The notes beneath the pieces were generated by a model. The model did no database searches, had not been told where the DNA came from, and was given only the letters and a program-made list of their open reading frames with translations. From positions 1-59,048 of the IMG/VR virus record IMGVR_UViG_3300025030_000116: a stretch of 59,048 nucleotides of DNA, one strand, 5' to 3'. The translations under genes and the position numbers were made by a program. Positions within the stretch are counted from its first letter, which is position 1; every line of letters starts with the position of its first letter. Shown one piece after another: positions 300 to 42,564 of the stretch. Origin of the DNA: a virus.

Positions 300-983
300 G
301 TTTATCTCCCAGTTTTATCCCACATGCCAAAGCGACAGGTGGGCGGCAGATTGGAGGGTAGTCCTGAAGTGCGTCAGAATATGTCGCAAGTCGTCAAGCG
401 ATCCAAGGAGCTGTTTTTAGCCTTCATATGCCCATCAGCGTCAATGCCACCTGGGACGAGAAGCGCAGATAGCAATCCAACGATGTAGACATCGCATTTC
501 AACAGAGTTGAGGGTGATGCCCATATCCTTGCCTGCCTTGCTCCGAGATCGTGCCTTTAAGCGGCATTTAAAGATTAGATGGCTTTTGCCGTCCCACACC
601 ATCCCCCTCGGGGGGTAAGGGGGGTTGTTTTTATTCTTTTATCTTCTTATGGGTTTGGTTCTGGGTAGCTTTGCGGATAGGTTAGCGTTAGCTATCCCAG
701 TAGGTAACCCAGTAGGTTCCGTTAAATTGACATGAGAACTCCATGTTAACAACTGGTTACGCCTGCTTACCCTGCGGATCACCCCAAAAACACCCCAATT
801 TACCCCCTTCGTCACATCGGATGATCGGTGCATGTTCGTAACCCAGAGCTAACCGACAGCTAACCCAGTTGGTTCTTTACCCAAAGATGCCCCCGGTACC
901 CTTCCCATGACCCCCTTCCCGAAAAATTTTCTTACCCCCGTTTTTCCCTCCAACAATTATTTTGACTGCATTCAACTTTGTTG
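300..983. other. non-coding region with iterons and a small hairpin
   Basis: No convincing gene on either strand; the short frames present lack ribosome binding sites. A CCCCC-TCG-GGGGG hairpin at 603-615 is followed by G- and T-runs and may be a terminator. From about 650 to 876 there are direct repeats related to AACCCAGTAGGT, annotated separately. The stretch ends at the operator-promoter pair that drives thyX. Confidence 0.5.
694..876. repeat. origin-like iterons shared with the initiator gene
   Basis: ATCCCAGTAGGT (694-705) is followed directly by AACCCAGTAGGT (706-717), a 12-base period. AACCCAGTTGGTTC recurs at 862-875, a weaker copy (AACCCAGAGCT) is near 840, and an inverted ACCCAG copy is near 661-667. 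The same core, including an exact AACCCAGTAGG, occurs in phase inside the replication initiator gene (42148-42181). Binding sites for that initiator, or a second origin, are the natural reading; this is inference from shared sequence. Confidence 0.55.
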
Positions 984-1012
984 TTGCAATCATCCAACTT
1001 TGTTGGTAGAAA
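973..1012 (+). promoter_or_regulatory. promoter with two operators upstream of thyX
   Basis: A -35 TTGCAA (984-989), a 17-base spacer and a -10 TAGAAA (1007-1012). Two identical CAACTTTGTTG palindromes at 973-983 and 995-1005 have starts 22 bases apart, about two helical turns. The second lies inside the spacer against the -10 box. A bound protein would block RNA polymerase, so the thyX operon should be silent in a lysogen. Architecture matches the promoter at 22810-22838. Confidence 0.6.
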
Positions 1013-1124
1013 GGTTCCACACGAATCGACACCGTGTTGGTGGGGCCGGGTGAGTTGAATTTTCAGGCAAGGGTGATGGGGCTGTCCCTGATCCGCTTGC
1101 CCGGCATTTTAAGGAAGATGAAGC

Positions 1125-1235
1125 ATGAACGTCTGCAAGAAGTGTCACCCGCTGAAGCGGTTTTTCTGCATCATCCCTTGCCCTGCCGTTAACACCGAGC
1201 CGGATAAGGTTAAAAAGGAGTGGGCAACGACATGA
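1125..1235 (+). CDS. small cysteine-containing protein before thyX
   Basis: A 36-residue frame starting MNVCKKCHPLKRFFC, with a CxxC pair and two more cysteines. AAGGA sits nine bases before the ATG. Its TGA overlaps the thyX ATG in the ATGA arrangement, which suggests translational coupling. The cysteines could bind a metal. A competing 38-residue frame starts at 1076, so the call is moderate. Confidence 0.45.
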   Translation: MNVCKKCHPLKRFFCIIPCPAVNTEPDKVKKEWATT

Positions 1236-1900
1236 AGCTGGTAAAGCCCGGATTCACAATTGACATGGACGGCTTGACCCCGAGCCAGATCCTCACCAAG
1301 CTTGAGCGCATTGGCCGGCTCAGTCATCAGTCAGAGGACAAAATGACCGAGGGCTCCGCCGAGAAGTTCATAAGCAAGTGGGCGATTCAGCACGGGCATG
1401 AAAGCATCCTCCGCCATCACAGCATTACGGTGCGGATCGTCTGCAATCGGGCTGTCTCCCATCAGCTTGTGCGTCACGGCCTGGCTCACTTTCTACAGGA
1501 GTCCCAGCGGTACTGCTGCTACAAGGGGCATGTCACCTTCGTCGTCCCCCAGTGGGCAAACATCGAGTCCGGGCAGTTCACCCGAGAGCAGGACATCAAA
1601 CTGATCCCCCCCTCCAATGGAGCGCGGGTGTGGGTCCGGTCGATGTTCAATGCCGAGGAGTCTTACCACGATCTGCTGGCCTGCGGGCGCCCGGCGGAAG
1701 AGGCGCGGGGAGTTTTGCCAAACGATGCCAAGACCGAGCTTGACCTGACGGCGAACTTGGAGGAGTGGCGCCACATTTTCAAAGCCCGGACGTCCAAACA
1801 CACTGACCCGGCTGCCCGCGAGATCATGGCCCCCATGCTGGACCAGTTCACATATCTGCTGCCGGCCATATTCAGCGACATCATTCCTTTCCGGGGTTAA
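1232..1900 (+). CDS. thyX: FAD-dependent thymidylate synthase (ThyX family)
   Basis: 222 residues. ThyX makes dTMP from dUMP using methylene-tetrahydrofolate, FAD and NADPH, in the cytoplasm. Visible family marks are HESILRHH (56-63) and the signature region RHGLAHFLQESQRY (81-94), which aligns with the classical RHR-x7-S motif but has Gly instead of the third Arg. The ATG at 1232 is preferred because AAGGAG ends at 1220, 11 bases upstream; the alternative GTG at 1220 would overlap the ribosome binding site. First large gene of the operon from the 984 promoter. It presumably raises dTTP supply for phage replication. Confidence 0.88.
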   Translation: MKLVKPGFTIDMDGLTPSQILTKLERIGRLSHQSEDKMTEGSAEKFISKWAIQHGHESILRHHSITVRIVCNRAVSHQLVRHGLAHFLQESQRYCCYKGHVTFVVPQWANIESGQFTREQDIKLIPPSNGARVWVRSMFNAEESYHDLLACGRPAEEARGVLPNDAKTELDLTANLEEWRHIFKARTSKHTDPAAREIMAPMLDQFTYLLPAIFSDIIPFRG

Positions 1901-2010
1901 CCGGGTCCCCGCTCTGCTTCGGCATCGGGCTTGCGGAGTGCATTGTGCCGGCCATTCCGGCAGGCGCTCCAGTCCAGAGACTCACTGGGTTATCAACCGA
2001 GGACGAACCC

Positions 2011-2085
2011 GTGACCTACTGGTGCAGCGGGCAGGAAGCTAGGTCAACCCTTACAATTTATCAATGTCCACGCTGCCCAGGCTAA
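2011..2085 (+). CDS. possible 24-residue zinc-ribbon-like miniprotein
   Basis: GTG start with GAGGA nine bases upstream; the product starts MTYWCSGQEA and ends CPRCPG, giving a CxxC pair plus an isolated Cys. It lies between thyX and the next gene. The gap 1901-2120 otherwise shows only a small GCCGGC/GCAGGC-type hairpin near 1950. Its short length makes this tentative. Confidence 0.3.
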   Translation: MTYWCSGQEARSTLTIYQCPRCPG

Positions 2086-2120
2086 CACGGTGGGTCCAAC
2101 TTTTTAGAGGCAAGAGCCCA

Positions 2121-2498
2121 ATGGAAGCAGAGAAAAAACAAAACCCTTGCTTGGGACAAAAATACAGCACTGCGGTCTTCGCTCCGACCCGTGGCGAGGT
2201 GAAATATCTGGCTCTGAAGATGGTTTCAGTGATTAGAAACAAACGCTTTGAGACTGTTGCTGAAGCTTACAAGCGTAGGTTCCTGTCAACTCTTGAGCAT
2301 ATCGGTCATACACTCGATCCGACGAGCCCGCCATGCACGAATTGCCCGGCTATCACAGTTTATTTTTGTGGGAAATACGCACTTGAGTGTAGGGATTTCC
2401 TCAGATACAGCAACGGTGGGCGTGCTTACGATCCGAATAAAAGGCGAAAGCGTGTCCCGAAAGTTAACACCACATTTGATTCAACGGAGGAATTGTAA
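2121..2498 (+). CDS. hypothetical protein, basic with cysteine pairs
   Basis: 125 residues starting MEAEKKQNPCLGQKY. The middle has helix-forming KRFETVAEAYKRRF, followed by a PPCTNC and a CGKYALEC cluster that could hold a metal, and a Lys/Arg-rich tail. The ATG at 2121 is preceded by GAGG; an in-frame ATG at 2064 would give a longer product with weaker support. Its stop overlaps the next start (TAATG). No family recognised. Confidence 0.6.
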   Translation: MEAEKKQNPCLGQKYSTAVFAPTRGEVKYLALKMVSVIRNKRFETVAEAYKRRFLSTLEHIGHTLDPTSPPCTNCPAITVYFCGKYALECRDFLRYSNGGRAYDPNKRRKRVPKVNTTFDSTEEL

Positions 2499-2764
2499 TG
2501 GCTAATCCCGTAATGGAGCGCCGCATCGTTCGCGTCCTGGTTAGCAACGATGTCTTGCTGCAAGGCTTGAACCTCGGACCAGAGACAGTCCTTTGCCAGA
2601 TCGTGCCAGCGGTTGATCGTTACGAGTTCGGGATGCAACACTGGCTGTTCTTTGCCGATCCTTCTTTCCCGGTGAACGAGCGTGGCTGCTTGGTACGTGA
2701 GTACCGGATGCTCTGCACCGACAACGACGAGGGCGGCAGGGACATCGAAATGGTGCCGGCATGA
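2498..2764 (+). CDS. hypothetical protein
   Basis: 88 residues, MANPVMERRIVRVLV at the start, with a strong GGAGG ribosome binding site eight bases upstream. The pattern of alternating hydrophobic residues suggests a small beta-rich fold. It overlaps both neighbours by a few bases, so it is clearly part of the thyX operon. No family recognised. Confidence 0.65.
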   Translation: MANPVMERRIVRVLVSNDVLLQGLNLGPETVLCQIVPAVDRYEFGMQHWLFFADPSFPVNERGCLVREYRMLCTDNDEGGRDIEMVPA

Positions 2765-3186
2765 CGACAGTGGCGTGGGACGGCAAGTTGTTAGCTGGAG
2801 ACAGGCTGTGCTGCTTTGGTGGCACTCCGGTTGTCACAACAAAGGTCTTCGCCCTGAATGGGGTTCTGATCGGGACCGCTGGCCTGAAGGTCGATGGAAT
2901 CCTGTTCCGCGAGTGGGTCGAGAAAGGCAGACCCGCAGACAAAAAGCCTGTAGTTGGCGACAACTTTACCGGCTTATTGGTAGAGGCATCCGGGGAGCTG
3001 ATTTACTATGACGGCCCGAAGTTGGTGCCAGTTCCGATGCCCGCCGGGCAGAGATGGTCCTTGGGAAGTGGCTGCGATTTTGCGCTAGGCGCTATGGCCG
3101 CCGGGGCGAGTGCGATACAGGCGGTAGAGATAGCCTGCGTGCTTGACGTTAACACGGGTCTGGGAGTGGACTATGTGTCACTCTAG
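2761..3186 (+). CDS. proteasome/HslV-like Ntn-hydrolase fold protein
   Basis: 141 residues. It begins MTTVAWDGKLLAGDR, which resembles the N-terminus of HslV and proteasome beta subunits: after Met removal, Thr2 would be the N-terminal nucleophile. The C-terminal part (GAMAAGASAIQAVEIA, then LDVNTGLGVDYVSL) also follows the pattern of phage HslV-like proteins. There is no HslU-like unfoldase nearby, so whether it degrades proteins, processes a precursor or is inactive is open. ATGA overlap with the gene before. Confidence 0.65.
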   Translation: MTTVAWDGKLLAGDRLCCFGGTPVVTTKVFALNGVLIGTAGLKVDGILFREWVEKGRPADKKPVVGDNFTGLLVEASGELIYYDGPKLVPVPMPAGQRWSLGSGCDFALGAMAAGASAIQAVEIACVLDVNTGLGVDYVSL

Positions 3187-3358
3187 CTGCCCCTACGAAT
3201 ACCGATTTAGCGGTGACTGTGGCCGAACGGCGATGCAAAACACCCCCCTTGCCCATTGCTACACCCCGAAATGCCAAGGGTGCGGCGAGGAAGGCTGTGA
3301 AATAGACGAGATTTACGGGCTGTGCAATGCCTGCTGGGAAAAGGAGCGAGAGCTATGA
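3173..3358 (+). CDS. small cysteine-rich zinc-finger-like protein
   Basis: 61 residues with 10 cysteines, including CQGCGEEGC and CNAC arranged as in a treble-clef or zinc ribbon. The ATG at 3173 has GGGAG eight bases upstream and lies inside the end of the Ntn-hydrolase gene in another frame. It may bind nucleic acid or a protein partner; family not recognised. Confidence 0.6.
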   Translation: MCHSSCPYEYRFSGDCGRTAMQNTPLAHCYTPKCQGCGEEGCEIDEIYGLCNACWEKEREL

Positions 3359-3672
3359 AAAAGATGACCGCTGAAGATGTCGCCAACCTGGCCCAGTTCG
3401 TCCAGGTGGCGAGGAAGATGATGGAGGAAAGGTTCGGGGATCTTGGCCTCAAGCTGCTGGACCTGGATCTCGGGATAAGCGGCAACAAGAACGTGATCGT
3501 CATCCCCGGCGCCGAACGGTACTTCCTCACTGGCACCGTTGCTCACCCGATGAGCCAGAAGTTCAAGGAGTTCCGGGTGGACTTTGCCATGAGCATCGGG
3601 GACACGACCATTGACACGGTGGCCGGGATCGTCAATGACGTGGTGACGAAGACGGCGCCGAGTTTCAAATGA
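3355..3672 (+). CDS. hypothetical protein
   Basis: 105 residues, starting MKKMTAEDVANLAQFVQVARK. An N-terminal helix is followed by a beta-rich region containing NKNVIVIPGAERYFLTG. The ATG overlaps the upstream TGA (ATGA), with AAGGAGCGAG before it. An upstream in-frame ATG at 3322 is less well placed. No family recognised. Confidence 0.65.
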   Translation: MKKMTAEDVANLAQFVQVARKMMEERFGDLGLKLLDLDLGISGNKNVIVIPGAERYFLTGTVAHPMSQKFKEFRVDFAMSIGDTTIDTVAGIVNDVVTKTAPSFK

Positions 3673-3908
3673 CACCCCAGACCTTGAATGAGTTCCTGGA
3701 CGCCATCTATTCGGCCACGAATGAGTTTCGGCGCACAGGAAAGGAGCCGAAGGCTATTTACCTGGGAAGCGAGACCCGCCATCGGTTCTATTCTGACCCT
3801 TTGGTGAGAAGTTACCTGACGGCAGCATCACCCGCCGTACAACGCGACGAAATATGTGGTATCCCGGTCTTCAGGGTGAACGATAAGGAGCATTTCAATG
3901 TCGGGTAG
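3669..3908 (+). CDS. hypothetical protein
   Basis: 79 residues, MTPQTLNEFLDAIYSATNEF at the start, then KAIYLGSETRHRFYSD and GIPVFRVNDKEHFNVG. The second half resembles the short substrate-like beta segments of phage structural or capsid-associated proteins, but I cannot assign it. It overlaps the previous gene by ATGA and the next by 11 bases. Confidence 0.55.
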   Translation: MTPQTLNEFLDAIYSATNEFRRTGKEPKAIYLGSETRHRFYSDPLVRSYLTAASPAVQRDEICGIPVFRVNDKEHFNVG

Positions 3909-4326
3909 TCTGAAGCTGTCTCTTCCTCTCACTGTGACACTTCCGCGCAAGACTAAGGCGGACAAGGTATTCATCCTGAACCTCAACAACTACCGTAACA
4001 CGCATCACATGACGCTGAACCAGGCCAAGGTAAAGTACAAAGAGCTGATATATGAGTTGATGCTGACGAGATCAGGAAAGTATGTAGCACCTATCTTGCC
4101 TCCGCCTCCGTATCTGTTCACCTACACCGTCTTCCCTGGCAGCATGAGGACGTTCGATGTTAACAATGTGTGCAGCATCATCGACAAGTTCGCAGCCGAC
4201 GCATTGCAGGAACTAGGAATAATCAAGAACGACAACTTCAAATTCATCCCCGAGAGTGTCTTTAAGTTCGGGAGCGTGGATAAAGACAATCCGAGATGTG
4301 AGTTGGTTGTAACTCCGCTCGCCTAA
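3898..4326 (+). CDS. RusA-like Holliday-junction endonuclease (probable)
   Basis: 142 residues. RusA enzymes cut four-way DNA junctions and use clustered acidic residues for Mg2+. Here the diagnostic stretch is FDVNNVCSIIDKFAADALQE (86-105) followed by GIIKNDN, giving D87, D96, D101 and D112 in RusA-like spacing. The preceding FTYTVFPG strand also fits. Last gene of the thyX operon; an operator lies five bases after its stop. It would resolve recombination or replication intermediates before packaging. Confidence 0.6.
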   Translation: MSGSLKLSLPLTVTLPRKTKADKVFILNLNNYRNTHHMTLNQAKVKYKELIYELMLTRSGKYVAPILPPPPYLFTYTVFPGSMRTFDVNNVCSIIDKFAADALQELGIIKNDNFKFIPESVFKFGSVDKDNPRCELVVTPLA

Positions 4327-4331
4327 AGCCG

Positions 4332-4342
4332 CAACTTAGTTG
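4332..4342. promoter_or_regulatory. operator-like palindrome CAACTTAGTTG
   Basis: An 11-base palindrome identical to the copy at 38229-38239. A half site (CAACAATAAAG) follows at 4351. It could control a promoter for the packaging operon; -35 and -10 boxes are not clear here. Confidence 0.5.
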
Positions 4343-4399
4343 AATTAATGCAACAATAAAGAGGGGGTGATCTGACTGGTATCAATCCTGGTAGTTGGA

Positions 4400-4639
4400 G
4401 TGGGCTTATCGTTGGCCCAGGTGTCCGTGGTGTCCGCCGCCGCGCATCAGGTAGGGATCGTAGTGCTGATCGAGGAGCGAGAGCAACCGACCATCATGTT
4501 GTCCATGCCGGCCCTTCCTGTTGGGTGCTACGAGCCAATCCTTTGGGACGAAGAGGATTCCCCCGAGTGCCATCCGGCCCATCCGTTGGGCGATCATGCC
4601 GATCATGCCAAGAGGCATGTGATTTGGGATTACGGCTAG
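4400..4639 (+). CDS. possible small protein upstream of terminase
   Basis: A frame of 79 residues from GTG at 4400. It could extend to a CTG near 4376 behind GAGGGGG. The start is hydrophobic (LSLAQVSVVSAAAHQVGIVV) and the end is His/Asp rich. The opposite strand is also open across most of it, and composition gives no clear preference, so I treat it as doubtful. The rest of 4343-4732 has no other candidate gene. Confidence 0.3.
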   Translation: MGLSLAQVSVVSAAAHQVGIVVLIEEREQPTIMLSMPALPVGCYEPILWDEEDSPECHPAHPLGDHADHAKRHVIWDYG

Positions 4640-4694
4640 GGCAAGAGAGCCGAACGGGGCTTAAAAAGATCCTACTGACCCAATCCACGATCAA

Positions 4695-4719
4695 GCCGGC
4701 GGGGGCAATCCTCGCCGGC
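4695..4719 (+). terminator. hairpin before terminase small subunit
   Basis: GCCGGCG (4695-4701) pairs with CGCCGGC (4713-4719). There is no T-tract, so it may be an attenuator, RNA processing site or translational control element rather than a true terminator. It ends 13 bases before the terminase small-subunit ATG. Confidence 0.4.
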
Positions 4720-4732
4720 ACAGGGATAAATC

Positions 4733-5326
4733 ATGGCTCCAAAGAAAGAAAAATCGAACGTGTTAACTGGGCTGGATCTCTTGCAGGCCAAGACCCCTTC
4801 CGGCCAAAAGAAAACCCCGCCGCTGATCCCGGTTCAAGAGGCTCTAGTAATCCAGGGAGTGCTTGCCGGGAAGAAGCCAGGCGAGGCCGTGGCTGACGCT
4901 GGGTACGGCTTCAACAAGAAGAACGCCGAGGCATTCGGCAAGAACCTTGTGGCGAAGCACACGGATGTTAACGGCGCCCTGATAGCAAGCCTTGAGAGTG
5001 TCGGGGTCAATCTGGACTTCCTCACCGGGAAGATTAAGGAAGGCATGGGTGCCAGCAAGCCGCTCATGGTTGGAAAGACCAAAAGCAAAGACGGCACGGA
5101 GGAGATGGAATACGCGAATACCCCCGACTATGCAACTCGCCACAAGTACGTTGAGACGGTACTTGACATCCTACCTGGCGCCCGAGCTGCCAAGAAGATT
5201 GAGGTGACGCAGACGACATTTGAACAGAAGGCGGTCCTGGTTGCCGATATGCGCGAGAACCCGAAGGACGTGATGCTGATGATGGAAAGGATGCTTGAGA
5301 TGAAGAGGACCAAAACCATTGAGTGA
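4733..5326 (+). CDS. terS: terminase small subunit (probable)
   Basis: 197 residues. The small terminase recognises phage DNA and loads the large subunit. A Lys-rich N-terminus is followed by a helical domain, VQEALVIQGVLAGKKPGEA then AVADAGYGFNKKNAEAFGKN, typical of small-terminase DNA-binding regions, and a helical C-terminal part. Position directly before the large subunit, with an 8-base overlap, supports the assignment. Family-level similarity only. Confidence 0.7.
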   Translation: MAPKKEKSNVLTGLDLLQAKTPSGQKKTPPLIPVQEALVIQGVLAGKKPGEAVADAGYGFNKKNAEAFGKNLVAKHTDVNGALIASLESVGVNLDFLTGKIKEGMGASKPLMVGKTKSKDGTEEMEYANTPDYATRHKYVETVLDILPGARAAKKIEVTQTTFEQKAVLVADMRENPKDVMLMMERMLEMKRTKTIE

Positions 5327-7073
5327 ACTCCTCGCCAAGATAGAAGCGATGACCGAGGAGGAGCTGCTTGACCACATCTCCCATCTGAGGCTCACCGTTG
5401 ATTTCCCCTTCTTCGCGTCCAGGCTGCTCAAAGTGCAGACGATGAAGGGCAAGATTGTGCCGCTAGAGCTGAACTATCCGCAGCAGCTCCTTCATACGAT
5501 CATCGAAGACCACATAAGGCCGAAAAGACTCGTCCGCATCGTTGACCTCAAATCTCGACGCATGGGACATTCAACATATTTCTCCGGGCTCTTCTACCAG
5601 AAGGCTAGCCGCATCCACAACCGCTATGCCGTTCAGATTACGCATGAGCCGGAAGCGACCGACACCCTTTTCAAGATGGTCAAGAGGTTCTTCAGTTTCT
5701 CCCCTACCAGCGAGCGCCCGGAAACGCTCTACAACAACACGAAGCTGTTGGAGTTCAACAACAAGGACGGCAGGGGGCTCAACTCCGGCTTCCGAGTTGC
5801 GACCGCCGGCAAGGAGGACTTTGGTTCAGGTCAGACGATCCACTACGCCCACCTTTCCGAGACGGCCAAGTGGGACCAGGGGACCACCAAGAGCCTGTTA
5901 ACGTCACTCCTACAGACCGTCCCGGACGAAGACGACACAATGGTTGTCTTTGAGTCAACCGCCAAGGGTATCGGCGGGGAGTTCTATGACCGCTTCTGGG
6001 GCGCTCGCTTCCGCGTCTGGATCAAGCGTCTGGACGCTGACGGCAAGCCGGTCATTGAGGACACGATCAACGCGACCGCCGACCTGGACAACATCTACAC
6101 GTCCCTGTTCTTTCCCTGGTTTGTCTTCCCCGACTACGTGATAACCCCGCCATACGACTTCGTGTTAACGCCGAAAGAGGCCGGGATCAAAGCGCAGTAC
6201 GGGCTTTCGGATGCTCAAATTTACTGGCGCCGCCGGACCATCGCCAACAAGTGTGACGCCAACGAAGACATCTTCAACCAGGAGTACCCGGCCACACCCG
6301 AACATGCCTTCCTTGGATCTGGCCGGCCATGCTTCGACAACGCCAAGCTGCTCTTGCAGAAGGACGCCGCCCCTCCTCCGATAGCACGTTACGAGTGCCT
6401 GACTTCAACGGGCAAGTGGCTCATCAAGAACGATGGCCGGCTGTCAGTATGGGAGGAGCCCCGAGTCGGAGACGCCTACATCATATCCGCAGACGTTGCG
6501 GAAGGTTTGGAGAAAGGCGACTTCTCAACTGCCGATGTCATCAACCATCGTACAGGGGACCAGGTGGCGCAGTGGCACGGGCACATCGACCCTGACGAGT
6601 TCGCATCAATCCTGAGTTCTCTCGGAATCCGGTACAACGTGGCCTTGCTCGCGCCCGAGCGGAACAACCACGGCCTCATGGTAGTCAACAAGCTGATGTA
6701 TACCCACAACTACCCGCGCATCCATTGCGAGATGGTTCCCGACCCTCCTGGCAAGCCACGGAAGAGGTTTGGGTGGGTCACTGATAAGAAGACCCGGCCT
6801 TTTATCATAGACAACATGATAGCCGAGGTGCGTGAGGGTTCGCATGGTATCAGGTGCGCGGCGACGTTCGAGGAGATGATGGCCTTCAAGATCCAGAACA
6901 ACGGCAGAATGGAGGCAGATTCAGGACGTTTCGATGACCGGGTTATCTCTATCTGTATAGCAAAGCACCTCCGCCAAGTTCTTCCCGTACCGCGTCAGAT
7001 TCTACGGAATAAACGCCCATCTGGAGCGACAGGCGGAACCAAGAGCAAGCCTAACGCTAAGGGGTGGACGTGA
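5319..7073 (+). CDS. terL: terminase large subunit
   Basis: 584 residues. This is the packaging motor: an N-terminal ATPase and a C-terminal RNase H-like nuclease. A Walker A-like motif KSRRMGHST lies at about 78-86, a Walker B-like MVVFEST at about 207-213, and the first nuclease acidic residue in IISADVAEGLEKGDFS near 388-403. The chosen start is TTG (5319) overlapping the small-subunit gene with AGAGGA upstream; the next ATG, at 5349, lacks a ribosome binding site. It drives DNA into the prohead through the portal encoded at 7900. Confidence 0.9.
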   Translation: MSELLAKIEAMTEEELLDHISHLRLTVDFPFFASRLLKVQTMKGKIVPLELNYPQQLLHTIIEDHIRPKRLVRIVDLKSRRMGHSTYFSGLFYQKASRIHNRYAVQITHEPEATDTLFKMVKRFFSFSPTSERPETLYNNTKLLEFNNKDGRGLNSGFRVATAGKEDFGSGQTIHYAHLSETAKWDQGTTKSLLTSLLQTVPDEDDTMVVFESTAKGIGGEFYDRFWGARFRVWIKRLDADGKPVIEDTINATADLDNIYTSLFFPWFVFPDYVITPPYDFVLTPKEAGIKAQYGLSDAQIYWRRRTIANKCDANEDIFNQEYPATPEHAFLGSGRPCFDNAKLLLQKDAAPPPIARYECLTSTGKWLIKNDGRLSVWEEPRVGDAYIISADVAEGLEKGDFSTADVINHRTGDQVAQWHGHIDPDEFASILSSLGIRYNVALLAPERNNHGLMVVNKLMYTHNYPRIHCEMVPDPPGKPRKRFGWVTDKKTRPFIIDNMIAEVREGSHGIRCAATFEEMMAFKIQNNGRMEADSGRFDDRVISICIAKHLRQVLPVPRQILRNKRPSGATGGTKSKPNAKGWT

Positions 7074-7234
7074 GCTTTATAACGAGAAAATGGGTCATTC
7101 CCGACTATGACCTGAAAAGATTGGAGCTACCAAGACATGGCGCCCATGACTTTCTTGCCAAGATCGGAGTTAACGTGGATCGGCAATATGATAGCTGGCC
7201 GGACCTTTGCCGCATGGCGACAGTCGTACACTAG
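7070..7234 (+). CDS. hypothetical protein ending at an in-frame amber codon
   Basis: 54 residues from a GTG that overlaps the terminase stop (GTGA), with AAGGGG upstream. The product starts MSFITRKWVIPDYDLKR. The frame ends with TAG at 7232-7234 but continues open for another 102 codons in the same phase. Either the gene was split by a nonsense mutation, the TAG is read through, or two small proteins are made. No family recognised. Confidence 0.5.
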   Translation: MSFITRKWVIPDYDLKRLELPRHGAHDFLAKIGVNVDRQYDSWPDLCRMATVVH

Positions 7235-7312
7235 CGGGTTGCACTCCTGACCCCTGACGAGATTCGCCCGATAGAAAGGAAGATTCTGGAGTCGATCATC
7301 CAGGATGAAGTT

Positions 7313-7543: not shown

Positions 7544-7583
7544 TTGTTTGACACGCTCCATAATGTTGTGGTAACTGAACCTC

Positions 7584-7712: not shown

Positions 7713-7713
7713 T

Positions 7714-7789
7714 GCTGGTGTAGCTCAGTTGGTAGAGCGGCTGCCTTGTAAGCAGCATGTCGCAGGTTCGATGCCTGTCATCAGCTCCA
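7714..7789 (+). tRNA. tRNA-Thr (anticodon TGT)
   Basis: A 76-base cloverleaf. Acceptor GCTGGTG pairs with CATCAGC (one G-U), the D arm is TAGCTCAGTTGGTAGAGC, the anticodon loop is CTTGTAA with anticodon TGT, the T arm is CAGG-TTCGATG-CCTG, and CCA is encoded at 7787-7789. It would read ACA and probably other ACN codons. GTTAAC read in the third frame (xxG TTA ACx) produces Thr ACN codons, an intriguing but unproven link. Confidence 0.95.
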
Positions 7790-7883: not shown

Positions 7884-7899
7884 TTACCTGGAGAACTGC

Positions 7900-34672: not shown

Positions 34673-34771
34673 AATGTTTTCAGCTACTTAACCTTGCCCC
34701 CCTATTGTCCCCTTATTTGTCATTTACTTGGCTTTTTGTGAACAATTTCAGCAAGTTAACTTGAAGAACAA

Positions 34772-34820
34772 AGGACTGCAAATCCTTCACTCCCCGGTTC
34801 AAATCCGGGCGCCGCCTCCA
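34772..34820 (+). other. attP: attP core: 3' half of a tRNA-Cys gene
   Basis: The stretch reads as a tRNA 3' part: an anticodon arm AGGA-CTGCAAA-TCCT (anticodon GCA, Cys), a T arm CCCGG-TTCAAAT-CCGGG, and an acceptor 3' arm ending CGCCGCCTCCA. The 5' half (acceptor 5' strand and D arm) is absent. This is the expected form of an attP for a phage that integrates into a host tRNA-Cys gene and restores its 3' end. It lies 260 bases from the integrase stop. Confidence 0.85.
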
Positions 34821-34825
34821 ACTAA

Positions 34826-34851
34826 CCTCTTGATTTTTCAAGGGGTTTTTT
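34826..34851 (+). terminator. terminator just after the attP tRNA segment
   Basis: CCTCTTGA (34826-34833) pairs with TCAAGGGG (34838-34845), with T-G allowed, then six T. After integration it would end transcription of the restored tRNA-Cys gene, or stop lysis-operon read-through into the integrase region. Confidence 0.7.
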
Positions 34852-34870
34852 GTTGTCCAGACTTTATTTA

Positions 34871-34977
34871 CAACAATGTTGTAGCTAACCCCTCAACTTT
34901 GTTGAATATACAATTTCCTCAACAATTTCCACTAGTTAATTATATTTACAACAAAGTTGTATCATTTCAACAACTTG
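34871..34977. promoter_or_regulatory. cluster of operator-like repeats beside attP
   Basis: CAACAATGTTG (34871-34881), CAACTTTGTTG (34894-34904), CAACAAAGTTG (34949-34959), and degenerate CAACAATTTCC (34920) and CAACAACTTG (34968-34977). The DNA here is markedly A+T rich. The 23-base spacing of the first two fits cooperative binding. They may be repressor sites or integrase/excisionase arm sites, since they lie between the core and the integrase gene. Confidence 0.55.
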
Positions 34978-35021
34978 CAGTTGTCCCCTTTTTGTCCCCT
35001 TCGGTCCCCCTCTCCGCTTAC

Positions 35022-35051: not shown

Positions 35052-35079
35052 GGGATAAGCAAGATGGTTTCTCTTCCTG

Positions 35080-36387: not shown

Positions 36388-36390
36388 AAC

Positions 36391-36855: not shown

Positions 36856-36917
36856 TTCGCCCCCTCCCTTGTTTGGCCTGTGTCTCCAAATCCTAGATGG
36901 ATTCTGAAGTATTATGA

Positions 36918-36946
36918 AATATAGCCCTACAATTCATTATTGTCAA
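36918..36946 (-). promoter_or_regulatory. leftward promoter for repressor and integrase
   Basis: On the minus strand, -35 TTGACA (36946-36941), a 17-base spacer and -10 TATATT (36923-36918). An operator half site (CAACAAT) overlaps the -35. The leader to the repressor start is about 60 bases. It diverges from the promoter at 36981. Confidence 0.7.
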
Positions 36947-36969
36947 CAATATAAATTGAAAGACGCTAA

Positions 36970-37023
36970 CTACTTTGTTGTTGACATTAATGAGCCGTAG
37001 GAATATCATGTGCAACATTGTTG
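36970..37023 (+). promoter_or_regulatory. rightward early promoter with two operators
   Basis: -35 TTGACA (36981-36986), 17-base spacer, -10 TATCAT (37004-37009). CTACTTTGTTG (36970-36980) abuts the -35 and CAACATTGTTG (37013-37023) covers the start site. It drives the early recombination and replication genes; repressor binding here would maintain lysogeny. Confidence 0.72.
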
Positions 37024-37081
37024 AAGTTATTTTTCTAGTTTGTTGTGCATGTGGTTCATAACCTGGCGGGAGGGAGGCAAC

Positions 37082-37249
37082 TTGTTAGATGGAGTAACTA
37101 CTGGTACGGATGATGGCATGTTTTTCTTGGATGGACTAGACAAGGGGGCACTGGAAGCAAGGGCAAGGGAGGCGAGGACAACGGTAAGCGATGAGACTGC
37201 AATCCTTAACGCCTGCCTTAACAGGCTAGGAGGTGACATTGCAAGCTAA
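37082..37249 (+). CDS. small hypothetical protein, first early gene
   Basis: 55 residues from TTG 37082 behind GGGAGGGAGG; an upstream ATG at 37040 in the same frame has no ribosome binding site. It is acidic and helical (KGALEARAREARTTVSDETA). Its location, first behind the early promoter, is where Cro or antirepressor genes often lie, but there is no visible HTH. No family recognised. Confidence 0.55.
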   Translation: MLDGVTTGTDDGMFFLDGLDKGALEARAREARTTVSDETAILNACLNRLGGDIAS

Positions 37250-38213
37250 GAAGCTGGTTCACACGAAGGACATGGAGCGCGACGAGTGGCTGAAGCACCG
37301 TCGCGGGGGCATCGGGGGCAGCGATGCCCCCGCCATCGCAGGCTTGTCCAGGTGGAGCAATCCACTCTCGACATACCTGGACAAGATCAGCACAGAGCCT
37401 CCCGACGAGGAAGAAAACCGCTTCATGAAGTGGGGGAACATCCTGGAGCCGGTCATTGCTACCGAGTTCGCCAATCTCACCGGGTTCAAGGTGCGGGTGT
37501 GCAACTACATCCTTCAGCACCCGGAACACAAGTGGATGCTGGCGAATATCGACCGAGAAGTGATCGACCCGATTCATGGTAAGGTCGGACTGGAGTGCAA
37601 GTCTGCCAGTCAGTACAAGGCAAAGGAGTGGGAAGACGACAAGACGCCGGACGAGTACGTAATCCAGTGCGCCCACTACATGATGGTGACTGGCTCCCCT
37701 CGCTGGTATCTTGCGGTCCTGATCGGCGGCAATGACTTCCAGTGGCGCCTTATCGAGCGGGATATGGATCTTGAGCGCGACCTGTTCAAGATAGAAAGCG
37801 AGTTCTGGCAGCAGATCCAGGACCGCACCCCCCCCGCCATCGACGGCTCGCCTGCAAGCGATGACATCCTGAAGTCTCTCTATCCGCAGGCAGAGATCGA
37901 AAGTGTGTTAACATTGCCCGATACCTTCCTGTCCGTCTTCGCACAACTGGAGCAGGCCAAGATTGACGAGAAGGAGGCAGAGAAGCGGAAGAAGGAGGCA
38001 GAGAACACGATCAAGGCCGAAATGGGCGAGTTTGCCGTTGCAACTTGCGGCGTGTACCAATCAAGTTGGTCGAATGTTTCTACCAGTGCATTCGACATGG
38101 ACTCTTTCAAGGTCGAGCAGCCCGAGTTGAGAGAGGGGTACATGACCACGCGCGACAGCCGAAGGTTCAGCTTCAAAAAGCTCAAGCCCCCGAAAGAGAA
38201 GAAGGCGGCATAA
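37239..38213 (+). CDS. YqaJ-family viral recombinase (lambda Exo-like nuclease)
   Basis: 324 residues. The start is TTG 37239 with AGGAGG five bases upstream; the GTG at 37233 lies in that site. RGGIGGSDAPAIAGLSRWSN and NILEPVIATEF are typical of YqaJ; GKVGLECKSAS supplies the E-x-K of the PD-(D/E)xK nuclease and DEYVIQCAHYMMVTG the following helix. It degrades 5' ends to expose 3' tails for the RecT protein next door. A C-terminal coiled coil (KIDEKEAEKRKKEAENTIKA) is present. Confidence 0.88.
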   Translation: MQAKKLVHTKDMERDEWLKHRRGGIGGSDAPAIAGLSRWSNPLSTYLDKISTEPPDEEENRFMKWGNILEPVIATEFANLTGFKVRVCNYILQHPEHKWMLANIDREVIDPIHGKVGLECKSASQYKAKEWEDDKTPDEYVIQCAHYMMVTGSPRWYLAVLIGGNDFQWRLIERDMDLERDLFKIESEFWQQIQDRTPPAIDGSPASDDILKSLYPQAEIESVLTLPDTFLSVFAQLEQAKIDEKEAEKRKKEAENTIKAEMGEFAVATCGVYQSSWSNVSTSAFDMDSFKVEQPELREGYMTTRDSRRFSFKKLKPPKEKKAA

Positions 38214-38228
38214 CCACGCCCAGCGGCA

Positions 38229-38239
38229 CAACTTAGTTG
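38229..38239. promoter_or_regulatory. operator-like palindrome between exonuclease and recT
   Basis: CAACTTAGTTG, identical to 4332-4342, between the exonuclease stop and the AAAAGGAG of recT. With no clear promoter here it may act as a roadblock, or as an internal silencer like mycobacteriophage stoperators. This is inference. Confidence 0.5.
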
Positions 38240-38257
38240 AAAAGGAGATACAACACA

Positions 38258-39178
38258 ATGGCATTACCGGAAGCAGGAACGAAGGACGCCCTCAAGGGCA
38301 AGTTGGCAGCAAAGGCAGGGGGAGACATTGCTCCCAAGCAGGACAACACGCTGGGCGGCTTCCTGGAGCGCACCAAGGGCGAGTGGTCGAAGGCGCTCCC
38401 GCAACACGTTACGGCTGACCGCTTGATGAGGATCGCGGTGTCGGCGGTGAACAGAAACCCGAATCTCGCAAAATGTACCATGCAGTCTCTCGTCGCCGGT
38501 GTCGTCATTTCCAGCCAGCTCGGCCTGGAGCTGAACACCCCCCTCGGCCACGCCTACCTTATTCCCTACTCCCGCTCGGTCAAAGTCGGCAACGAGTGGA
38601 AGAAGGTTGACGAGGCTCAGTTCCAGCTCGGCTATGCCGGCATCCTGGATCTCGCCTACCGTTCCGGCCAGTTCAAGGGGATCTATTCGGAATCCGTCTA
38701 CGAGAATGACGAGTTCTCCTACGAGTACGGCTACGACAAGTCCCTGAAGCACAAGCCCACCGAAGGCGAACCCGGCTTACTGAAGGGCGTCTATGCAGTC
38801 TTCCACCTCAAGGATGGCGGCAGCGACTTCAAATACTGGAGCGTTGCAAAGATCATGGCTCACGCCGCCAAGTATTCCGGCGCATGGGATGCGGCAGCCG
38901 GGAAGTTCAAGGCCAAATCTTCCTGGGCTGACAGCTTTGAAGGAATGGCAAAGGTTCCGGTCCTCAAGGATCTGCTGAAACTGGCTCCCAAGAGCATCGA
39001 GTTCCAGAAGCAGCTCACCCTGGACAACTCCGTCAAGACCGAGTTCAAGGCCGATATGGTCGAGGCGTCGGGGATCGAGGTCGAGTATTCGATAGTTGAC
39101 CAGGATACCGGCGAATTGCCCATGACCGCCGAGGAGAAAAAAGGGGAAGGCGCAGAGCCTCTTTTCGACGCCAAGTAG
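38258..39178 (+). CDS. recT: RecT-family single-strand annealing protein
   Basis: 306 residues from ATG 38258 behind AAAAGGAG. The core QSLVAGVVISSQLGLELNTP, GHAYLIPYSR and FQLGYAGILDLAYRSGQFK are strongly RecT-like. The C-terminal tail is acidic. It anneals complementary single strands and works with the YqaJ nuclease upstream and the SSB at 39941. Phages use this pair for recombination-dependent replication and for genome mosaicism. Confidence 0.92.
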   Translation: MALPEAGTKDALKGKLAAKAGGDIAPKQDNTLGGFLERTKGEWSKALPQHVTADRLMRIAVSAVNRNPNLAKCTMQSLVAGVVISSQLGLELNTPLGHAYLIPYSRSVKVGNEWKKVDEAQFQLGYAGILDLAYRSGQFKGIYSESVYENDEFSYEYGYDKSLKHKPTEGEPGLLKGVYAVFHLKDGGSDFKYWSVAKIMAHAAKYSGAWDAAAGKFKAKSSWADSFEGMAKVPVLKDLLKLAPKSIEFQKQLTLDNSVKTEFKADMVEASGIEVEYSIVDQDTGELPMTAEEKKGEGAEPLFDAK

Positions 39179-39180
39179 TA

Positions 39181-39191
39181 CAACTTTGTAG
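39181..39191. promoter_or_regulatory. degenerate operator CAACTTTGTAG
   Basis: Lies immediately after the recT stop. A promoter for the following regulator may overlap it, but the -35 and -10 boxes are unclear. A G+C-rich imperfect hairpin follows at about 39212-39245. Confidence 0.42.
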
Positions 39192-39263
39192 TATTTTTTA
39201 CGCTACCATGTGGCGGGGCGGATGACTTAGGCCGTCCGTCCCGCGCAATAGGAGAAAGTTAAC

Positions 39264-39662
39264 ATGGCGACATTAGGCGCAAGAGTAGACGAAGCCTTTT
39301 TCAAGAGAGTAACTGCGGCGGCAAACGCATTGGGAATGAAGGTAAGCGGATTCTTGACGGCAGCAGTAGAAGAGAAAATGGCGGCGCCTGCCGGTAATGC
39401 CAGACAGTATTCCTTGCTCGACACAGGGAACAACGTGCGTCACGGCGCACAGCGGGAGCAGATCCGGATGGTCATGGTGGATGGCGCCTGGCGGTCGCTC
39501 CCCGATATTGCAACAGCAATAAATGCTTCTGACGCCTCGATCCCTTCCATATCGGCCCGGCTGCGGGATCTTCGCAAGCCCGAGTTCGGGAGCTATACGG
39601 TGGACAAGAGGCAGCCGAGGAAGGGCTACTTTGAATACTGCGTCAAAGGGGGGAAGCAGTAA
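39264..39662 (+). CDS. DNA-binding regulator: ribbon-helix-helix plus winged helix
   Basis: 132 residues. The N-terminus (ATLGARVDEAFFKRVTAAAN then GMKVSGFLTAAVEEK) has an RHH pattern; the C-terminus (SLPDIATAINASDASIPSIS then ARLRDLRKPEFGSYTVDKR) is like a winged helix. GTTAAC lies between the GGAG and the ATG. It may regulate the early operon it sits in. Targets unknown. Confidence 0.6.
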   Translation: MATLGARVDEAFFKRVTAAANALGMKVSGFLTAAVEEKMAAPAGNARQYSLLDTGNNVRHGAQREQIRMVMVDGAWRSLPDIATAINASDASIPSISARLRDLRKPEFGSYTVDKRQPRKGYFEYCVKGGKQ

Positions 39663-39883
39663 TGGCGGAGTTCCTCCTCTGGAAAACCCGGAATGGCCCT
39701 CGCCCTCACCTCTGGAAAGCCCGGAATGAAATCATGATGGCCTCACGAAGAGACGAGTTCGTTGCCGGTCGCCTGAAGGTTGCAGGCGAACTAGGGATGA
39801 CCGGGGATGCCTGCTTTGTCTTCTTGGCAGCAGAACTCATGAAGGACCGGGAGGCCCGCAGAAGTAAGGATCAAATACCTTGA
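39662..39883 (+). CDS. hypothetical protein
   Basis: 73 residues from an ATG overlapping the previous stop (TAATG). The start is Trp/Arg rich (LLWKTRNGPRPHLWKARN), then a helical region (DEFVAGRLKVAGELGMTGDA). A shorter version from the MMASRR methionines is possible. No family recognised. Confidence 0.5.
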   Translation: MAEFLLWKTRNGPRPHLWKARNEIMMASRRDEFVAGRLKVAGELGMTGDACFVFLAAELMKDREARRSKDQIP

Positions 39884-39893
39884 GGCCCGCAAC

Positions 39894-39956
39894 ATGGGCC
39901 TGTTCGACAAAATCAAAATCTGGATTGGAGGGAAGTTAACATGGCGAAAGGCGTAA
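39894..39956 (+). CDS. possible 20-residue amphipathic peptide
   Basis: MGLFDKIKIWIGGKLTWRKA, with GAGG about nine bases upstream, overlapping the SSB start in another frame. Its amphipathic lysine-rich helix might be membrane active, or its translation may couple to the SSB gene. Short frame; tentative. Confidence 0.3.
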   Translation: MGLFDKIKIWIGGKLTWRKA

Positions 39957-40318
39957 ATTTCACGTTTCATGGCCGCCTCGGCAAAGACCCCGAATTGAAG
40001 TATGTCGGGGCCAAACAAACCCCCTGCACCAACTTCCGTGTTGCCGTCAACATGGGCGAGGCTCAAGGCACCGAATGGATCGACTGCGTTGCCTGGGGCG
40101 AGGTCGCCCTCGGGGTGGCTGAACAGTTCAAGAAGGGAGACAAGATCTGGATCAAGGACTCCGGCCCCAAGACCAACAGGTGGGAGTACCAGGGGAAGTC
40201 CTACGAGAAGATGCAGTTCGTCATCTGGTCCTTTGCTGGCGAGGAATCGGCTGAAGGCGAGGCAGGCGAAGCGGCAGGCGGCGCCCCAGACCAGGGCGAC
40301 CAGGAGATACCGTTCTAA
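39941..40318 (+). CDS. ssb: single-stranded DNA-binding protein
   Basis: 125 residues. The OB fold starts VNFTFHGRLGKDPELKY; TEWIDCVAWGEVALGVAEQF and YEKMQFVIWSFAGEE are SSB-like. The acidic tail ends DQEIPF, the tip that binds partner proteins in the SSB family. RBS GGAGGG with GTTAAC between it and the ATG. It protects single strands for RecT and replication. Confidence 0.92.
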   Translation: MAKGVNFTFHGRLGKDPELKYVGAKQTPCTNFRVAVNMGEAQGTEWIDCVAWGEVALGVAEQFKKGDKIWIKDSGPKTNRWEYQGKSYEKMQFVIWSFAGEESAEGEAGEAAGGAPDQGDQEIPF

Positions 40319-40698
40319 TGGACAAAGGCATTGCAGAAGGTAGCCGCATGATATTCCCGCTCTGTGGCATCACTTATGCCGACTGCATCAGCGTGTCCGG
40401 GGTTAATCAGAGGGATGCGGCCAAGAAGCTTGGCGTCAGCGAACGTCAGTTCCACGCCGTAATCAAGCGGCTCGGAATGGGTCACTGGTATCCCGACGTT
40501 CGGCCCCGGTCGCGCTGCATCTCCAAAGAGGACATCATCAAGGTGGCGGGAGAGAGGTACACCCGCAGGGATTCAGCGCATATCCTCGGCGTCAGCTACG
40601 CCTACCTGAAGGATCTCATTGAGGAGTGGAAGCTTCAGGAGTATTTCATCAGCAGCTCGGACGCGAAGAGAATTGCCGTCAAGGGTTACTGCAACTAA
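40318..40698 (+). CDS. protein with two HTH motifs
   Basis: 126 residues. Two helix-turn-helix-like stretches, VNQRDAAKKLGVSERQFHAV (about 28-47) and YTRRDSAHILGVSYAYLKDL (about 80-99), separated by a linker. This tandem arrangement suits a transcription regulator or DNA-structuring protein. One-base stop/start overlap with ssb. Confidence 0.6.
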   Translation: MDKGIAEGSRMIFPLCGITYADCISVSGVNQRDAAKKLGVSERQFHAVIKRLGMGHWYPDVRPRSRCISKEDIIKVAGERYTRRDSAHILGVSYAYLKDLIEEWKLQEYFISSSDAKRIAVKGYCN

Positions 40699-40711
40699 AG
40701 GAGTTAACGCA

Positions 40712-41131
40712 ATGGGATGCATGAAACACAATTTCCAGTTATCCGACCCGTGCCCTCTCTGTTACCCCTCTGCCTACAACATACCCAGAGGCTCGATAAC
40801 CGCCAAACCGGAGGAAGCAGACGCGCCCAAGAACGACCAAGGCAAGGCCCGCTACGACCTTATCCCCGCTCATGCCCTAGAGGCGCTGGCGAAGGTTTAC
40901 ATGAACGGCGCAGGGGCCGAATACCCTGAGAACTCTTGGCGTAAGGGGTTCCGCTATACCCGCATTTTCTCGGCGGCGATGCGACACCTGTGGGCCTGGA
41001 TGCGAGGGGAAGAGCTTGACCCCAAGACTCGCTTGCCTCACACGATCCACGCCGCATGGAACTGTTTCACGTTGTTCGAGATGGGGCGAACCGGCAAGGG
41101 AACCGATGACCGCTGGAAGGAGGAAATATGA
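40712..41131 (+). CDS. dATP/dGTP diphosphohydrolase N-terminal-like (DUF5664) protein
   Basis: 139 residues from ATG 40712 (GGAGTTAACGCA precedes it, another GTTAAC in a ribosome-binding-site spacer). The N-terminus has a CMKHNFQ-DPCPLC cysteine pair; then DQGKARYDLIPAHALEALAK, WRKGFRYTRIFSAAMRHLWA and LPHTIHAAWNCF follow the family pattern with conserved acidic and His positions. Members are thought to process purine dNTPs. It may alter the phage nucleotide pool. Confidence 0.65.
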   Translation: MGCMKHNFQLSDPCPLCYPSAYNIPRGSITAKPEEADAPKNDQGKARYDLIPAHALEALAKVYMNGAGAEYPENSWRKGFRYTRIFSAAMRHLWAWMRGEELDPKTRLPHTIHAAWNCFTLFEMGRTGKGTDDRWKEEI

Positions 41132-41442
41132 AAGCATGTCAAGGGAAGGTCGTTTATATCAGCGGGTCAATATCTTTGGACCCGAATTTCAAGGAGAAAT
41201 TTCGCCGTGCGGCAATGTCGGTTATGGATGCTGGCGCTAAAAGGTGCCTCAACCCCGCCGAACTCCCCGCAGGATGGGACTATGGGGAATACATGGACCA
41301 CTGCATGTTGATGGTTCGCCGTTCCGAGGTGCTTGTTATGCTGCCATGTTGGCGATCTTCCCCAGGGGCAAAGGCAGAGAAGGCGTTTGCCGAGAGTTTG
41401 CGGCTCACAGTAGTGGAACTGCCGACTGTCGGGGAGGCATAA
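41128..41442 (+). CDS. DUF4406 nucleoside deoxyribosyltransferase-like protein
   Basis: 104 residues. GKVVYISGSIS, then LNPAELPAGWDYGEYMDHCM and EVLVMLPCWRSSPGAKAEKA match DUF4406, related to the nucleoside 2-deoxyribosyltransferase fold: a nucleotide-binding beta-alpha motif and a WxxSxGAxxE motif. It may salvage or exchange bases on nucleosides. It overlaps the previous gene by ATGA. Confidence 0.72.
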   Translation: MKACQGKVVYISGSISLDPNFKEKFRRAAMSVMDAGAKRCLNPAELPAGWDYGEYMDHCMLMVRRSEVLVMLPCWRSSPGAKAEKAFAESLRLTVVELPTVGEA

Positions 41443-41630
41443 TGGGGCTCGTATCTCACAAAAGAAAACGACAGAGCAAGGGGCGAGATCCCGAAGGGCG
41501 CTACAGGTGTGTTTCCTTCCGAGTTAACTTGGAGGAAGAGGCGGCAATTGGCGCGATGGTCCCTGAGGGAGCCAACAAAAACACCTTTTTGCGCGATTTG
41601 GTTCTATCGGCAGCTCAATCCGTACAATAA
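41442..41630 (+). CDS. small basic RHH-like protein
   Basis: 62 residues, starting MGLVSHKRKRQSKGRDPEG, then RYRCVSFRVNLEEEAAIGAM, a ribbon followed by two helices as in ribbon-helix-helix proteins. Stop/start overlap with DUF4406 (TAATG). Probably a DNA-binding regulator or a nucleoid-like factor. Confidence 0.5.
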   Translation: MGLVSHKRKRQSKGRDPEGRYRCVSFRVNLEEEAAIGAMVPEGANKNTFLRDLVLSAAQSVQ

Positions 41631-41646
41631 AGTTGCAATTATTCTA

Positions 41647-41683
41647 CAACCTTGTTGACGCCTGCGATTTTACATGCTACCGT
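41647..41683 (+). promoter_or_regulatory. replication-operon promoter with operator
   Basis: -35 TTGACG (41655-41660), 17-base spacer, -10 TACCGT (41678-41683). CAACCTTGTTG (41647-41657) overlaps the -35. It reads into the initiator and primase-helicase genes through the hairpin at 41768. Confidence 0.55.
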
Positions 41684-41767
41684 CAGTCTTGTTTTCAAAT
41701 CTCAACCACATCTGGCGGGATGTGACTGCACGATATGGGTTCAAAGGGGGATCGCCCTCTTTACCCC

Positions 41768-41812
41768 AAACCCCCCTCAGAGGCCCGCCAGCCTTTGCGG
41801 GGGGTTTACTTT
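41768..41812 (+). terminator. leader terminator before the initiator gene
   Basis: AAACCCCCC (41768-41776) pairs with GGGGGGTTT (41799-41807), followed by TACTTTTT. It lies between the promoter at 41655 and the ATG at 41827, so it could attenuate replication genes unless antitermination occurs. Confidence 0.6.
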
Positions 41813-41826
41813 TTCCGGAGTCAGCA

Positions 41827-42564
41827 ATGAACCATTACCCCTTCTACGTTGGCGATTACATGCGTGACACAATGCACCTCACCAACGAGCAGGATCTTAT
41901 GTACCGGCGGGCAATCGACTACTGTTACATGACTGGTAGGCCGCTCCCTCTCGACAAAACCCAGTGGGTTAGCATCGGCAAAGCTTCAGGTCCGGTTTGG
42001 GTGGCGGCTATGGAGACTGTTATTGAGTCGTTCTTCAGGGTCAGGGAGGACGGGTACTACAACGACAGGATCGAGCGTGAGCTTGAGAAAATGAACAGGA
42101 AGGTTCAGGCTGCAAGGGATAACGGCAAGCTGGGTGGCCGCAAAAGAAACCCAGTTGATAACCCAGTAGGAACCCAGCCGGTTAGCGGATTGGTTGTCTC
42201 AGCCGTTGAAGTTGTCGAACCAGCCGCCCCACCTACCCTACCCCTCAAGCCCCCCCTGAAAAAGAAAGCCTCAATAGATGGAGACGAAGCCCTCTTTGAT
42301 GAGTTCTGGCAGGGATACCCGAAGAAATCTGCAAAGCCGGTGGCCCGTAGGGCATGGGACAAGCTGGGCGTTGATGCGCTCCTCTCGGCGCAAATAGTAC
42401 AGGCAGTGGAGAACTTCAAGCGCACGGAGCAATGGATGAAGGACGGCGGCCAGTTTATCCCGATGCCTGCGACCTGGTTGAATCAGCGGCGGTGGGAAGA
42501 TGAGATTGAAATATCCGGCGAGGTCGGGACCGGAGCAAGAGACATATTCTCGGGGGGAAGGTAG
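41827..42564 (+). CDS. replication initiation protein (DUF1376-type)
   Basis: 245 residues from ATG 41827 behind CGGAG; an upstream in-frame ATG lies before the leader hairpin and is unlikely. The N-terminus, MNHYPFYVGDYMRDTMHLTN then LMYRRAIDYCYMTGRPLP, is a DUF1376 winged-helix domain of replication initiators. A Pro-rich linker (VEPAAPPTLPLKPPLKK) precedes a C-terminal DnaD/primosome-like part ending PATWLNQRRWEDE. The linker-coding DNA carries iterons (42148-42181), a lambda-O-like organisation with the origin inside the gene. Confidence 0.75.
   Translation: MNHYPFYVGDYMRDTMHLTNEQDLMYRRAIDYCYMTGRPLPLDKTQWVSIGKASGPVWVAAMETVIESFFRVREDGYYNDRIERELEKMNRKVQAARDNGKLGGRKRNPVDNPVGTQPVSGLVVSAVEVVEPAAPPTLPLKPPLKKKASIDGDEALFDEFWQGYPKKSAKPVARRAWDKLGVDALLSAQIVQAVENFKRTEQWMKDGGQFIPMPATWLNQRRWEDEIEISGEVGTGARDIFSGGR
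41958..42181. repeat. iterons in the initiator gene, probable origin
   Basis: AACCCAGTTGAT (42148-42159), AACCCAGTAGG (42160-42170) and AACCCAGCCGG (42171-42181) are direct repeats with 12- and 11-base periods. An outlying AACCCAGTGGGTT is at 41958-41970. The same 11-mer is found at 706-716. Repeats at the DNA level persist even though they encode NPVDNPVGTQP in shifting phases, so the DNA sequence itself seems to be selected. Confidence 0.6.

Follow-up and report, generated by a model that had tools for sequence, protein, structure and literature searches.

Repeat arrays shared by a DUF1376 gene and a distant non-coding locus as candidate initiator sites of a temperate phage

The window analysed here, a stretch of 59,048 bases, is an IMG/VR virus record, linear, in which no terminal repeats were found. 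It carries a gene of the DUF1376 family, coding for a putative replication initiator, and short direct repeats (iterons) which are present both inside this gene and in non-coding DNA near the left end. In a preliminary description, AACCCAGTAGG had been noted at 706-716 and again at 42160-42170, within arrays of 11-12 bp period, with further copies near 862 and 41958. All these observations were borne out, the two further copies being among the matches to the motif AACCCAGTNGG. The layout had to be corrected in two respects: the left locus is made of two sub-arrays, and the gene starts at the ATG in 41827, not at 41674. The features of the two loci are the following.

41827-42564, plus strand: DUF1376 gene, putative replication initiator of 245 aa, start codon ATG at 41827
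42148-42184, plus strand: in-gene iteron array, AACCCAGTTGAT / AACCCAGTAGG / AACCCAGCCGGTT, start spacing 12 and then 11
41957-41974, no strand assigned: single iteron, near-palindrome AACCCAGTGGGTT(AGC), inside the DUF1376 domain, gene position 132
690-719, plus strand: left iteron array A, non-coding, AGCTATCCCAGTAGGTA / AGGTAACCCAGTAGGTTC, period 12
839-875, plus strand: left iteron array B, non-coding, TAACCCAGAGC / TAACCGACAGC / TAACCCAGTTGGTTC, period 11 (third unit also written TAACCCAGTTGG, with the array end at 874)
646-687, minus strand: degenerate inverted half-sites GCTACCCAGAACC and CGCTAACC, adjoining array A
694, 706 and 862: matches to AACCCAGTNGG in the left locus
41958 (both strands), 42148, 42160 and 42171: matches to AACCCAGTNGG in the gene locus

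The product of the gene belongs to the DUF1376/YdaU family, filed as a domain of unknown function (PF07120; E 6.8e-21, 74.9 bits, above the curated cut-off of 30.1), and it matches PHROG 9327 (primosomal protein, 1.6e-43) and PHROG 9474/270 (replication initiation). In AlphaFold2 models, a winged-helix domain is predicted for residues 1-103, with a mean predicted local distance difference test score of about 90 or more over residues 11-100, followed by a disordered linker (about 104-150) and a helical C-terminal domain (about 151-230). The in-gene array is located in the DNA coding for the disordered linker, between the two predicted folded domains. The gene copies at 42148 and 42160 share one reading frame, from which those at 41958 and 42171 depart, so that it is the DNA of the repeat, and not a peptide, which is conserved. 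In phage zth2-2, the repeats are found at gene positions 132 and 322, as in the window gene.

This arrangement recalls the lambda O gene, in which the iterons (39034-39118) are also carried by the linker-coding part of the initiator gene. The lambda iterons are of about 18 bp and have no second array, whereas DUF1376 arrays have units of 11-12 bp, are often near-palindromic and often precede an AACC array of 7-8 bp units. No lambda O family was highlighted among the Pfam and PHROG matches of the initiator, Foldseek with the full model gave no match below E 0.001, and no convincing solved relative was found by sequence in the PDB. The N-terminal domains of RepA-type plasmid initiators (PDB 4pql, 4pt7, 5kbj) have a comparable winged-helix arrangement (Z 4.8-5.2, root mean square deviation 3.1-4.0 over 74-79 residues), a weak match, level with many unrelated winged-helix proteins and not accompanied by a PDB sequence match. 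A scan of genome contigs with the initiator for a host or prophage copy revealed no relative.

With at most one mismatch, AACCCAGTNGG has 10 matches in the 59 kb, against a mean of 4.25 in shuffled sequences, 3 of 100 of which reach 10. This excess is modest, the raw count being evidence of small weight alone, and it is compatible with a sharing of the motif by chance or as a coding artefact of the low-complexity Asn-Pro-Val linker. However, eight of the ten matches and all four exact ones fall inside the two loci, the only others being at 1981 (minus strand) and 35396. A matrix built from the three left sites has its top non-self positions in the whole window at 42156, 41957 (minus strand), 42144 and 41954, all in the gene, and a matrix built from the gene sites has its top positions at 702, 858, 41954 and 690; this cross-prediction is a stronger test than the raw count. 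In an unselected self-comparison of the window, 599-749, which includes the inverted half-sites, is the top partner of the gene array outside the gene (score 37; runner-up 21), and in the reverse direction the left segment 640-720 matches the gene array. A score of at least 37 was reached by 11 of 600 random segments; the ten listed each pair with other true repeats, the 27-bp tandem at 54677 or the CAACTTTGTTG operators. Chance or artefact is opposed by the reciprocal best matches, the two reading frames and the non-coding copies, is contradicted by the relatives described below, whose paired arrays match each other in a motif other than that of the window, and appears scarcely credible.

The family sample consisted of 40 non-redundant DUF1376 genes from viral contigs and phage records, with 800 windows of the same contigs as controls. 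An array of 10-13 bp units was present in the linker-coding DNA of 25 of the 40 genes and in 29 control windows (3.6%), and an AACC-rich array of 6-8 bp units, sitting just 3' of the former, was also detected in the linker-coding part of 25 genes, against 12 control windows (1.5%). Both occurred together in 14 genes and in two control windows. The 10-13 bp unit varies among phages (CCCAGTGGGTT, GCGAACGCATT, AGCAAGTGCTG, CAACGGGCGTT, GCACGAAGCGT, GTTACGTCACC, GAAATCAGATA), and neither of the family periods, 11 and 7 bp, is a multiple of 3. Closer DUF1376 domains go with closer array DNA (Mantel r 0.48, 0 of 5000 permutations), a correlation which is confounded by descent. Judged from their sequences, the linker-coding arrays look like a replication origin inside the gene. 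The lambda-O-like origin proposed for the window gene in the preliminary description is supported by its own sequence and by some 40 relatives. Uniformly palindromic iterons were rejected, the excess being mild (0.62 vs 0.52), and so was AACC-N5-GGTT as a genome-wide palindrome (22 matches vs 22.7 expected, no enrichment). In one DUF1376 phage contig (L099, G019), repeats GTTAACGTGGTTAAC of about 22 bp adjoin two TTATCCACA-like boxes at 693-830.

A DNA search of viral contigs for tandem ACCCAGTNGG returned 31 contigs: ten carry the repeat in a DUF1376 gene, and seven others have a non-coding module, iterons plus AACC array, before the terminase. Nine longer phages that possess a DUF1376 gene were reached through terminase relatives of these seven contigs, and in five of them (G044, G050, G054, G055, G061) the gene array has one clear partner elsewhere, located in all five in non-coding DNA ahead of the small and large terminase genes. 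Each partner repeats the iteron of its own phage's gene (of the GAAATCAGA type) together with the AACC-rich array; G050 has CGAAATCAGATA in the gene and TGAAATCAGATA in the partner, G054 has CTGAAATCAGAA and TCTGAAATCAGA, respectively. The non-coding copy is a whole module, in which the order (iterons, then AACC array) and the polarity are retained. The top window outside the gene scores 36-80 in the five phages and the runner-up 14-27; the partner score was reached by none of 30 random segments in three phages and by one of 30 in the other two. The same self-comparison applied to lambda, as a control, showed no partner array. Following the direction of transcription of the gene, the partner is found 11.0-15.4 kb further downstream, and a leftward AAA+ gene stands on the other side of the array in four of the five phages, the fifth contig ending there. 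The AACCCAGTNGG pair of the window has the same layout with an unrelated motif. The contigs L151 (6189-6436) and L152 (3286-3415) have a non-coding array of six CAACGGACGTT units plus CCATTAC repeats before the terminase; no DUF1376 gene was seen there.

In the window, the left arrays are in a region (560-1230) whose longest stop-free frame does not exceed 79 codons. The 17 kb which had been said to separate the two loci circularly would be 17.2 kb if the linear record is closed to a circle. The genes which surround the two loci are listed below.

42567-44507, plus strand: primase/helicase (Toprim plus RecA-like ATPase; Pfam Toprim_2 and AAA_25; PHROG 239, E 3.5e-101), next after the initiator gene
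37233-38213, plus strand: YqaJ/RecE-like exonuclease
38237-39178, plus strand: RecT single-strand annealing protein
3898-4326, plus strand: RusA-like Holliday junction resolvase (PHROG 1682, E 4.6e-30)
5319-7073, plus strand: terminase large subunit (PHROG 24361 terminase, E 1.8e-25), downstream of the left array
56388-57668, minus strand: AAA+ (AAA_5) ATPase, 39% identity over 227 aa to L148:6107-7366(-), L148 being a further phage which carries the non-coding array

The nearest known plan is that of the Bacillus subtilis phage SPP1. Its initiator gp38 has two binding sites, oriL, which is part of gene 38, and oriR, at a distance of about 12-13 kb (PMC6316719, PMC3485210). A fork that leaves oriL is proposed to stall on meeting oriR-bound gp38, and a resolvase, an exonuclease and an annealing protein to convert the stalled fork to concatemer replication, the theta-to-sigma switch. 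As in the window, one array is in the initiator gene and the second is intergenic, in or near the late region, and the spacing of 12-13 kb compares with the 17.2 kb of the window, if circular, and with the 11.0-15.4 kb of the relatives. The three SPP1 recombination proteins are matched in the window by the YqaJ/RecE, RecT and RusA proteins. The window initiator is a member of PF07120. Contrary to SPP1, a primase/helicase is found in place of gp39/gp40, the phage is temperate and the iteron motif differs. As for an AT-rich unwinding element beside both arrays, as in SPP1, the iterons of the relatives are followed by an AACC array of 7-8 bp units in the gene as well as outside it, and the window has no clear one.

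Taken together, these data make it likely that both arrays are sites of the DUF1376 initiator and that the gene array is the origin. The best reading is the oriL/oriR plan of SPP1. By this analogy, the same initiator probably docks a second time at the left array, which is perhaps a fork barrier starting concatemer replication. The barrier role, taken alone, is proposed tentatively, with a slight leaning against it. What was observed is the shared motif, the two reading frames, the enrichment in the family, the matched pairs of five relatives and the gene content; that the initiator binds, that an origin is active, that the genome is circular and that forks stall is what we infer from them. 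In the proposed mechanism, the repeats would be iterons bound by the phage's own DUF1376 protein and the linker-coding array would be the main origin, the winged-helix domain contacting the iterons of 11-12 bp, while the primase/helicase encoded next would be recruited, presumably, by the C-terminal domain. The left array (690-875) would be a second initiator site. On the closed circle it would lie 17.2 kb downstream, with the AAA+ operon running leftward on one side and the late operon running rightward on the other. Like oriR of SPP1, it would either start replication or, when bound by the initiator, stall the fork coming from the gene origin, after which the exonuclease, the annealing protein and the Holliday junction resolvase may restart replication as a concatemer for packaging.

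The second origin-like site for the same protein, which the preliminary description had also suggested, finds support in the matched pairs with another motif in five relatives. Rather than a fork barrier, it could be an independent origin, for an early or a lysogenic/plasmid state; the phage would then have two true origins and use each at its own time, like phage P1. The retention of the full module, in order and polarity, in the non-coding copies of the relatives would be expected of a working origin, and oriR of SPP1 too has repeats and a DNA unwinding element (PMC6316719). However, the left copy of the window has no clear second array, the integrase and the phage attachment site (attP) suggest integrated lysogeny, in which a plasmid-state origin is unneeded, and the location ahead of the packaging genes suits a late role; this independent origin is possible but doubtful. 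No DnaA boxes above chance were detected in the window, and GC-skew was discarded as an origin marker, as it tracks gene direction only.

By its gene content, the element of the window is a temperate tailed phage: a tailed-phage gene set, an integrase and an attP at a tRNA-Cys were found, and it does not qualify as an autonomous plasmid replicon. Repeats of 11 bp (TTGTCCCC) at 34690-35010 flank the 3' end of a tRNA-Cys (about 34765-34820) beside the tyrosine integrase gene. This region is probably the attP with arm-type sites, and its presence within the contig (34765-34820) suggests a non-integrated genome. These features bear on the other proposal of the preliminary description, in which the left array would belong to a plasmid-like replicon and serve incompatibility or copy control by titrating the initiator. 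Iterons distant from an origin are able to titrate initiators, and ectopic copies of the lambda origin reportedly arrest lambda (PMC4488673). Nevertheless, the element has the integrase and attP of a temperate tailed phage, no partition genes were found among the window proteins searched, and the array lies at the early/late boundary before the packaging genes, a location before the terminase which is conserved in the relatives. The plasmid-like locus finds no support and is very improbable.

Because a homologous AAA+ gene is found near the right end of the window, the left array would be in the same place as in the relatives once the circle is closed; in four of the five paired phages, a relative of this gene is divergent to the terminase gene, beside the non-coding array. 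A wider search with the AAA+ protein gave no matches. On a circular genome, such a position, with operons diverging on either side, is compatible with an operator, at which the DUF1376 protein would repress or activate the divergent AAA+ and late promoters and tie replication to the early/late switch; initiators often autoregulate. On the other hand, another operator-like family, CAACNTTGTTG, occurs in the window, also at 973/995, and the non-coding copy of the relatives retains an AACC array which an operator does not need. The operator is, in our opinion, unlikely.

Several points weigh against the preferred reading, in which both arrays are initiator sites on an SPP1-like plan. No clear AACC array of 7-8 bp units was found at either site of the window, and, the contig being linear, the left array would adjoin the AAA+ operon if the circle is closed. 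The N-terminal domain gives weak fold matches, with a best Z of 5.9, of a kind shared by winged helices in general. The five paired relatives belong to one terminase group and have one GAAATCAGA-type iteron, and the number of independent cases is therefore below five. Finally, the second array is absent in most DUF1376 records examined, many of them fragments; it is therefore not required by the family, and its presence as a general DUF1376 feature was rejected.

Other repeats and genes were observed in the window. The palindrome CAACNTTGTTG, with at most one mismatch, has 21 matches against 3.3 expected (0 of 100 shuffles), at 500, 973/995, 34662, 34871/34894, 34949, 36970/37013, 41625/41647 and other positions. 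Several pairs, 22-23 bp apart, precede the integrase, RecE/RecT, DUF1376 and thyX genes, and the palindrome is a candidate phage-wide operator. The 27-bp tandem repeat at 54677-54826 has 5.6 copies with 95% matches. A tRNA-Thr (TGT) gene is located at 7714-7789, between the terminase and portal genes. On the minus strand, one reading frame (51562-52206) fuses an HNH-type endonuclease domain to an AlpA/excisionase-like domain, and 53410-53967 codes for an Nmad5 nucleotide-modification-associated protein.

DUF1376 is mentioned in five open papers, and among the open papers listed for DUF1376, phage iterons and paired origins no description of an in-gene origin or of a paired array was found. We put forward, as a nearly balanced conjecture, that in a large unnamed class of phages the DUF1376 gene is itself the origin, composed of iterons of 11-12 bp and, behind them, an AACC array of 7-8 bp units. 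One branch of this class would have duplicated the whole origin to a fixed place before the terminase, where it would serve as a programmed barrier to forks and as a switch to concatemers, separately from SPP1. If this is true, a widespread domain of unknown function would be an initiator that binds origins by a recognition code which can be read, and the initiator gene would show where the origin of many phages lies. The phage-specific matched pairs would also make the stall and concatemer proposal made for SPP1 testable in other phages.

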